From Sulfolobus acidocaldarius SUSAZ (GTDB lineage: Archaea > Thermoproteota > Thermoprotei_A > Sulfolobales > Sulfolobaceae), in the NCBI GenBank assembly GCA_000508305.1, contig CP006977.1:1520621-1584620 (forward strand): 64,000 nt of DNA, read 5' to 3'. The translations under genes and the position numbers were made by a program. The notes under the pieces are model-generated. The model did not search any database and was not told the origin of the DNA. It saw only the letters and a program-made list of their open reading frames with translations. Shown here in pieces: positions 42,474 to 43,507 of the stretch. Position 1 is the stretch's first letter; each line of letters begins with the position of its first letter.

Positions 42474-43507
42474 TCATTTAATCGCTATGGGGTTAACAGG
42501 AGAACCCACAGCACCTTCAAATAGTAAAGGTTGAGCCACAAACATAAACGTGAAGAGTTTGTCCTTTCTACAATGATCAGCTAACTCCTCAAGCTGACTT
42601 CCTCCCCGCCCTAAAGGGCGAGGCTTTCATCATTTTGTAAAATATTTCACCTACAGTTAAGCCCATATTTGGGATAACTACATCATGCCATGGTTGCATT
42701 ATCTCCTCTACCTCATTAGGAATAACTTCCAATCCCCATGTGTCACTTGCGACACCAGCGACTCTCTTCTTATGTAACCTTATTGCATTATCTAATCCAA
42801 ATCCTGGAGCAGGAGTATAGCGCGCAAAGTCCTCCCAGTCACCTTTTCTCAAATATCTAGCCATATGTCCTAATGAGTAAAAATCTCCTTGTCTAATCTT
42901 AACATTTTCAAACTTGATTATATCATCCAAATCCTCGGAGGTTATAACTTCACCTGGCTCTAACCATTCCACACTCCTGAAAGATGGAAAGTCCAATAAC
43001 ACTCCTCTGCCTACTACCTTATCCTTGATATTTGCAATATCGTTTTTGAGTGCTCCGGATGAGTTCACCAGAAAGGCGTTGTAGCCATTCCACGTTTTAC
43101 CTTCAAAAAATATATGACTCAAGGCCATCCTATTATGTAGCACTCTGTAAAGGCATTATAATTATATCGTCAGCCTAAGAGATATCTTTCTGATAAATTC
43201 TCTTCGTCAATTCACTCTGGGCAGCACTTATCACATCTGCACCAGAGGCTGTCATAAGATGGATAGGGTTAAATCTGCCTCCAAATCCTCCTCTTTGAAG
43301 ACCTGAGGGATCAAAATTTAGTAACAACGAGAACACTCTCCCTTCCTTTACCTCCCTGGAGGCTTCAACTACGGACTCATTAGTTACGTAATTTAGAGTC
43401 CCCATCTCGTCATCTTTTCCCCATCTACCCCAGTTTCTCACTGATAAAGCAATCTTCTTCTTAAATTCCTCTAATGTATATTTTTTCTCTATCCCATTAA
43501 CAATCAA
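42474..43507 (-). pseudogene. Cyclase-family (kynurenine formamidase-like) gene broken by shifts and a 43-nt element
   Basis: Consecutive pieces on the minus strand match one putative-cyclase (COG1878) protein. 'NWGRWGKDDEMGTLNYV' starts the N-part. After TAG at 43175 come 'ADDIIIMPLQSAT', a TAATAG and a shift, then 'ALSHIFFEGKTWNGYNAFLV' and 'YTPAPGFGLDNAIRLH', ending 'GLTVGEIFY'. Here a 43-nt hairpin element (42594-42636) interrupts. Beyond it the same protein resumes as 'LEELADHCRKDKLFTFMFVA' and 'GAVGSPVNPIAIK' with stop at 42474. Removing the element exactly joins Tyr to Leu in frame. Family members are metal-dependent hydrolases of amides or lactones; this copy cannot be active. Confidence 0.88.
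42594..42636 (-). repeat. Hairpin micro-element, 43 nt, inserted in the cyclase gene
   Basis: On the minus strand, TTAC precedes 'AAAATGATGAAAGCCTCGCC', loop TTTA, 'GGGCGGGGAGGAAGTCAG'. It contains a strong stem. The interrupted codons rejoin perfectly without it and no target bases are duplicated, which fixes both ends to the base. Confidence 0.95.

Follow-up and report, generated by a model that had tools for sequence, protein, structure and literature searches.

The cyclase-family pseudogene and its 43-nt insert

The window analysed here is a 64,000-nt stretch (positions 1520621-1584620) of the complete 2,061,920-bp genome of Sulfolobus acidocaldarius SUSAZ (G000, CP006977.1). Individual sites were compared with those of one congener (G023, 2,225,959 bp), and the family-wide comparison included 31 genomes of Sulfolobaceae. 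The window contains a cyclase-family (PF04199) pseudogene at 42474..43507 on the minus strand, which carries a 43-nt solo-hairpin (terminal-only) element at 42594..42636 (minus strand; AAAATGATGAAAGCCTCGCCCTTTAGGGCGGGGAGGAAGTCAG) with no counterpart at the orthologous G023 site. Without the insert, the flanks form one frame on the minus strand, ...GLTVGEIFY|LEELADHC...GAVGSPVNPIAIK, and in a whole-gene alignment the G023 ortholog is uninterrupted at the insertion point (GAAATATTTTAC|CTTGAGGAG). The empty site in G023 is TTTTAC|CTTGAG, which includes the TTAC tetranucleotide retained at the left flank of the insert (42637..42640, minus strand), and target duplication is absent. Because the flanks differ from the end bases of the element, the boundary of the insert cannot slide.

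The original prediction had claimed an exact 43-nt insertion and a readable empty site, with Tyr and Leu adjacent in frame after deletion, and both claims are confirmed by the empty orthologous allele of G023 (TTAC|CTTGAG, one frame). It had also proposed an alignment of homologues across the join and a search for the empty site in other strains; the latter was found in the congener, and six further homologues from this and other genera (27-32% identity over the query) pass through the join without indel or unrelated sequence, with the consensus E-[IM]-[LF]-[WY]-L-E-[ED]-L. Homologues in other genera being also without the insert, the idea that an ancestral repeat was lost by the congener is refuted at the cyclase site. 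A scan of the contig collection with the cyclase fragment gave no match.

The cyclase identity of the host gene, also part of the original prediction, is upheld by the PF04199 match, but the gene is broken elsewhere and 42474-43507 spans two broken ORFs. Compared with G023, its lesions are a TAG at 43175-43177, a TAA TAG at about 43130-43135, a 1-nt insertion at about 43125, just past the TAA TAG, and the loss of 6 nt near 42884. These lesions make the gene a pseudogene whether or not the 43-nt insert is counted, and the G023 copy has one TGA of its own that breaks the frame. The adjoining ORF (window 41654-42328) has DUF3782 and PDDEXK_10 nuclease domains and contains in-frame 27-nt repeats, the number of which differs in G023.

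Full-length tnpB elements and the anatomy of the 43-mer

Four full-length elements with the same ends are present in G000 (L010, L014, L018 and L020), having 1315-1320 nt from TTAC to TCAG and being 88-92% alike. Their left end is TTAC|AAAATAACG-AAAG-hairpin-ATGTAG and their right end GAAC-hairpin-AGGAAGTCAG|, so that a subterminal hairpin with a guide at its 5' foot stands at each end of all four, as in IS200/IS605 elements; the left and right hairpins have up to 21 identical nt in common (BLAST). A single ORF of 372 or 403 aa is found in L010 and L018, the two loci with ORFs listed, and it carries the Pfam TNB domain (Cas12f1-like/TnpB zinc domain), with OrfB_IS605 below the cut-off in one. 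Four full-length tnpB matches are without stops. Judged from sequence, these parents are IS1341-type, tnpB-only IS200/IS605 elements with tnpB as the sole gene.

All parts of the 43-mer in the cyclase gene can be traced to these ends. On the minus strand, it begins with the left-end spacer AAAATGATG (42628..42636), the same 9 nt as in the left end of L020 and a variant of those in the other three parents, followed by AAAG at the 5' foot of the hairpin (42624..42627), identical to the IS608 left guide. The hairpin CCTCGCCC-TTTA-GGGCGGGG (42604..42623, minus strand; DNA fold -7.4 kcal/mol, z -1.87) makes up, with the next A, the 21-nt repeat common to both parent ends, and the right-end tail AGGAAGTCAG (42594..42603, minus strand), which is that of L010, L014, L018 and L020, ends in TCAG, presumed to be the cleavage site on the right. 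The 43-mer is a parent left end (12 nt, guide AAAG and hairpin) joined within the 21-nt repeat to the right-end tail (TCAG), and it has a single hairpin and a single guide (AAAG). This architecture fits exactly a deletion between the near-identical palindromes of an IS605-type transposon.

Like IS608 and other IS200/IS605 elements (PMC5934647, in its available text), the 43-mer lies directly 3' of TTAC, with the left guide AAAG, a subterminal hairpin and no target duplication. The IS608 left guide AAAG pairs with TTAC, and its right guide GAAT with TCAA (PMC5934647). The present elements differ from IS608 in lacking tnpA, in the single hairpin and single guide of the 43-mer, and in the right site of the parents, which is TCAG with the guide GAAC. 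By the IS608 pattern, the left AAAG would fit TTAC and the parental right GAAC would fit TCAG. The position-by-position pattern of pairing between guide and cleavage site was reportedly worked out by Barabas et al. in 2008.

The 43-mer has no transposase-gene capacity and no terminal inverted repeats, and it has a near-terminal palindrome and no target duplication, the features of terminal-only PATEs. It is an element of this kind, known from Haloquadratum, here in Sulfolobaceae. The Sulfolobus MITEs SM1-SM4 are set apart by their description, the ends AAAA... and ...TCAG not being inverted repeats. For S. acidocaldarius, seven IS elements per genome are reported, and such short forms are unmentioned in the available part of that account (PMC5554439). 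The literature search, which covered few subscription papers, found no description of a crenarchaeal 43-nt element.

Copies in the genome

A 17-nt core pattern is matched nine times in the window, where chance would give 0.04. With up to 3 mismatches, the 31-nt core occurs at 41 places in G000 (reversed control, 0), which are 37 standalone 43-mers of one length and the 4 right ends of the tnpB-only elements. The bases 5' of the 37 solo copies are TTAC in 33, TTAT in two and TGAC and TTAG in one each, and the left part of all 37 is of the left-end type. The label of micro-element given by the original prediction is apt, the same 43-nt unit occurring 37 times in G000, at TTAC sites. A covariance model, built on an alignment (A2) that took in 25 of the 37 solo copies, gave 89 matches in G000 and 34 in G023 and was matched in 30 of the 31 family genomes; these matches take in full-length element ends and old copies and are not counts of 43-mers.

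Other copies in the window are at 12484..12526 (plus strand) and 24265..24307 (minus strand), both with a precise empty site in G023, at 18923..18965 (plus strand; one of the copies with no G023 state assigned), and at 52146..52188 and 53041..53083 (both plus strand). The last two are identical to each other, belong to a rare sequence type and stand in the same orientation 895 nt apart, which hints at local movement or conversion. Outside the 37, the window has a more divergent 43-nt copy at 22149..22191 (minus strand), absent from G023, and three older copies at sites that are also occupied in G023, at 9726..9769 (minus strand), 8530..8570 (plus strand) and 43784. Additionally, a short derivative of about 98 nt (62903..63000, plus strand) follows TTAC with two adjoining model matches, having kept both ends and hairpins and lost the core and gene; in size it represents a class intermediate between the 43-mer and its 1.32-kb parent.

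The 31-nt core had no exact copy in viral contigs. A pattern search of the contig collection found 19 stretches in other archaea (Caldivirga, Thermococcus, Halorussus, Ignisphaera and others), which were rejected as copies of the 43-mer since most have a different left part.

The conservation of the hairpin in 30 of 31 family genomes, and the resemblance of a single hairpin with a 5' guide to REP sequences (PMC6006769, as far as its available text describes them), would suit a selected genomic signal, for example a hairpin of RNA processing or transcription end, that spread for its function in the manner of REP sequences. However, copies occur within genes and in both orientations, their ends match transposon cleavage sites, an Rfam search of the window matched no family, and the covariation in the hairpin stem is weak; such an origin is held to be improbable. 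REP sequences are described in the same source as single hairpins, 21-65 nt long and scattered over the genome, that carry a tetranucleotide at their 5' foot (PMC6006769). The 43-mer resembles them in being a dispersed single hairpin with such a foot and differs in having AAAG instead of GT[AG]G and in its ends, which are set by transposon cleavage sites. An identity as a REP sequence was rejected on the foot AAAG and on the lack of a TnpA-REP, there being no Y1 match by PF01797.

Sites compared with the congener

Of the 31 solo copies outside the window and the 6 inside it, 16 and 3, respectively, have a precise empty site in G023, 19 of 37 in total. One copy is at a shared site (L028), three stand in place of native G023 DNA (two in L025 and one in L026), and one (L015) has its flanks in opposite orientation in G023 (L171), which places the element at the edge of an inversion. 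The solo copy in L018 has a full-length element as its neighbour; in G023 (L168), the right flank of the solo copy is continuous with the TTAC and left flank of that full-length element, as if the block between them had been excised whole or deleted between two TTAC sites. The remaining 12 have no G023 state assigned, L017 (an empty match at 73% identity) being counted there. Among the four full-length elements, two replace native DNA, one is the L018 case and one is without a match.

In the reciprocal direction, 12 of the 34 G023 model matches were compared with G000, giving 7 BLAST pieces; three copies were shared (L174, L175 and L178, two by matching flanks and L174 more weakly), one (L177) was probably empty in G000 and eight had no usable match. 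Because there are both shared old copies and lineage-specific ones, the process must predate the species split and have continued after it. The old shared copies (window 9726, 8530 and 43784; L028; L174, L175 and L178) are also what would be expected if the copies were ancestral repeats lost by the congener, and not insertions. That reading needs 19 losses, each exact to the base, and is scarcely credible.

Distribution of the Y1 transposase

In G000, the Y1 TnpA that IS200/IS605 elements encode or find in their genome is absent. The Y1 family PF01797 had 0 matches in G000 and G023 and was positive in 17 of the 31 family genomes, and a Sulfolobales TnpA sequence used as query had 0 matches in G000 and G023. 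At least 10 model matches are present in 8 of the 14 TnpA-free genomes. A positive link between copy number and TnpA was rejected (rho -0.21, P 0.25, 31 genomes). The model matches rise with the number of tnpB relatives (rho 0.54, P 0.0016, 31 genomes), a correlation that is partly trivial because full-length element ends count as model matches. G010 and G016 have about 100 and about 115 model matches, respectively, neither with a complete Y1 transposase (in G010, a fragment only).

Origin of the 43-nt element

Here it is proposed that the insert is a terminal-only derivative of a tnpB-only IS200/IS605 transposon, which would have inserted at TTAC and then collapsed in place; this reading is given a probability of roughly 0.6. 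A full-length element would have entered at TTAC through the single-strand chemistry of a Y1 (TnpA) enzyme, the left guide AAAG picking the TTAC, and the 1.27-kb core would then have been lost when the two hairpin repeats recombined or replication slipped from one to the other, similarly to the formation of a solo LTR. The product would keep the AAAG guide alone, its own right end TCAG not being addressed under the IS608 pairing rule; with no guide for TCAG, the 43-mer should therefore be immobile or nearly so. In the cyclase gene, which was perhaps already decaying, the insertion would be a neutral scar.

Many separate joinings of halves, rather than one copied 43-mer, would leave left and right variants to combine freely. 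Their association among the 43-mers is low (Mantel r 0.09, P 0.18, in a weak test), and T5 and G5 are each found with both G32 and A32; a reassortment of halves is suggested, and recurrent mutation could mimic it. No pair of full-length and 43-nt alleles at one site was found among the G000/G023 comparisons, and because of this the collapse itself was not witnessed.

Against a collapse in place stand the ratio of solo to full-length copies (37:4), the tail variants of many copies (GGAGGTCAG, GGAGAGG), which are in none of the four present parents, and the lack of a TnpA to have placed the parents. Also, five 43-mer sequences exist in 2-4 identical copies each, and these, with the rare-type pair 895 nt apart, fit movement of the 43-mer. 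The 43-mer could itself be mobile, as a single-hairpin mini-element moved in trans by an earlier Y1 transposase or one on another replicon, which is regarded as possible, on a tentative basis. This would agree with the 37 copies of invariant 43-nt length, with the 19 precise lineage-specific sites, with the identical neighbouring pair in the window, and with the clustering of copies (3 gaps below 1 kb against 0.78 expected, P 0.039). The same option was raised by Dyall-Smith et al. for the 52-bp ISHwa23 form, in the available part of that paper (PMC3119063). However, with AAAG as the sole guide there is none matching TCAG, one hairpin is present instead of two, and neither G000 nor G023 has a Y1 gene.

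For in-place collapse, the closest known case is that of the terminal-only PATEs of Haloquadratum walsbyi, HqIRS46 (52 bp) and an ISHwa23-derived form (52 bp), described in 2011 (PMC3119063). According to the available text of that paper, the 52-bp forms were proposed to arise by repeat-mediated deletion between the 19-22 bp palindromes of tnpB-only transposons, full and collapsed alleles were observed at the same site, and the short forms may move although the tnpA genes are broken, a contradiction noted there (PMC3119063). Like these PATEs, as far as that text goes, the Sulfolobus elements are IS605-type tnpB-only ends fused at a near-terminal palindrome (19-22 bp in Haloquadratum), without inverted repeats or target duplication, with strain-specific insertions and in a transposase-poor host. 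Unlike what it reports, the host here is crenarchaeal, the length is 43 nt, the solo copies are 37 and near-identical, the target is TTAC, no collapse was caught, and at some sites native DNA between two TTAC was replaced. What is new here is the guide logic and this replacement of host DNA.

The question of how tnpB-only elements move in TnpA-free cells was already raised, as a contradiction, in Haloquadratum (PMC3119063). With its four intact parents, its dozens of solo copies and a simple pairing rule (TTAC/AAAG, TCAG/GAAC), and with readable empty sites in the congener, G000 makes this question testable in Sulfolobus, a genus for which laboratory genetics exists.

Native DNA replaced between TTAC sites

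Replacement of native DNA (REPLACEMENTS) was seen at five sites (L025 twice, L026 and the full-length L014 and L020), where G023 has 60-620 nt between the flanks. In L025 (G000 near 2016700-2017100), two solo copies lie in and beside one ATPase-like gene, and 257 and 618 nt of the corresponding G023 locus (L166) are lost, each between two TTAC sites. At two of the five sites, an open frame runs through both edges of the G023 segment: one frame is ATPase-like, with 469 codons, and has lost 618 nt in G000; the other is radical-SAM-like, with 585 codons, and has lost about 101 nt (both named from sequence reading). At three sites, the G000 element stands after the first TTAC and is joined at its other end to what lies past the second TTAC in G023; at the other two, CTAC and TTGC are in place of the second TTAC. 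As TTAC makes up 0.6% of tetranucleotides, a second TTAC in three of five has P about 2e-6. No TTAC-bounded replacement was found in the literature, in a search that covered few subscription papers.

From a hairpin with AAAG as its sole guide, one would expect a pairing of two TTAC sites and the deletion of the DNA between them, and the solo or parental ends may act in this way as TTAC-to-TTAC DNA editors, an idea considered rather doubtful. Since the genome is without a TnpA gene, such editing would have to be by a transient Y1 enzyme or by an unknown activity. If the replacements do stem from the chemistry of the element, the 43-nt scars would, in addition, be a cause of small deletions in genes. 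The replacements could also be explained by two copies that inserted and later recombined with each other in the ordinary way, and close pairs of copies do occur, namely the identical pair at 52146 and 53041 and the full-length and solo copies of L018, which lie about 560 nt from each other.
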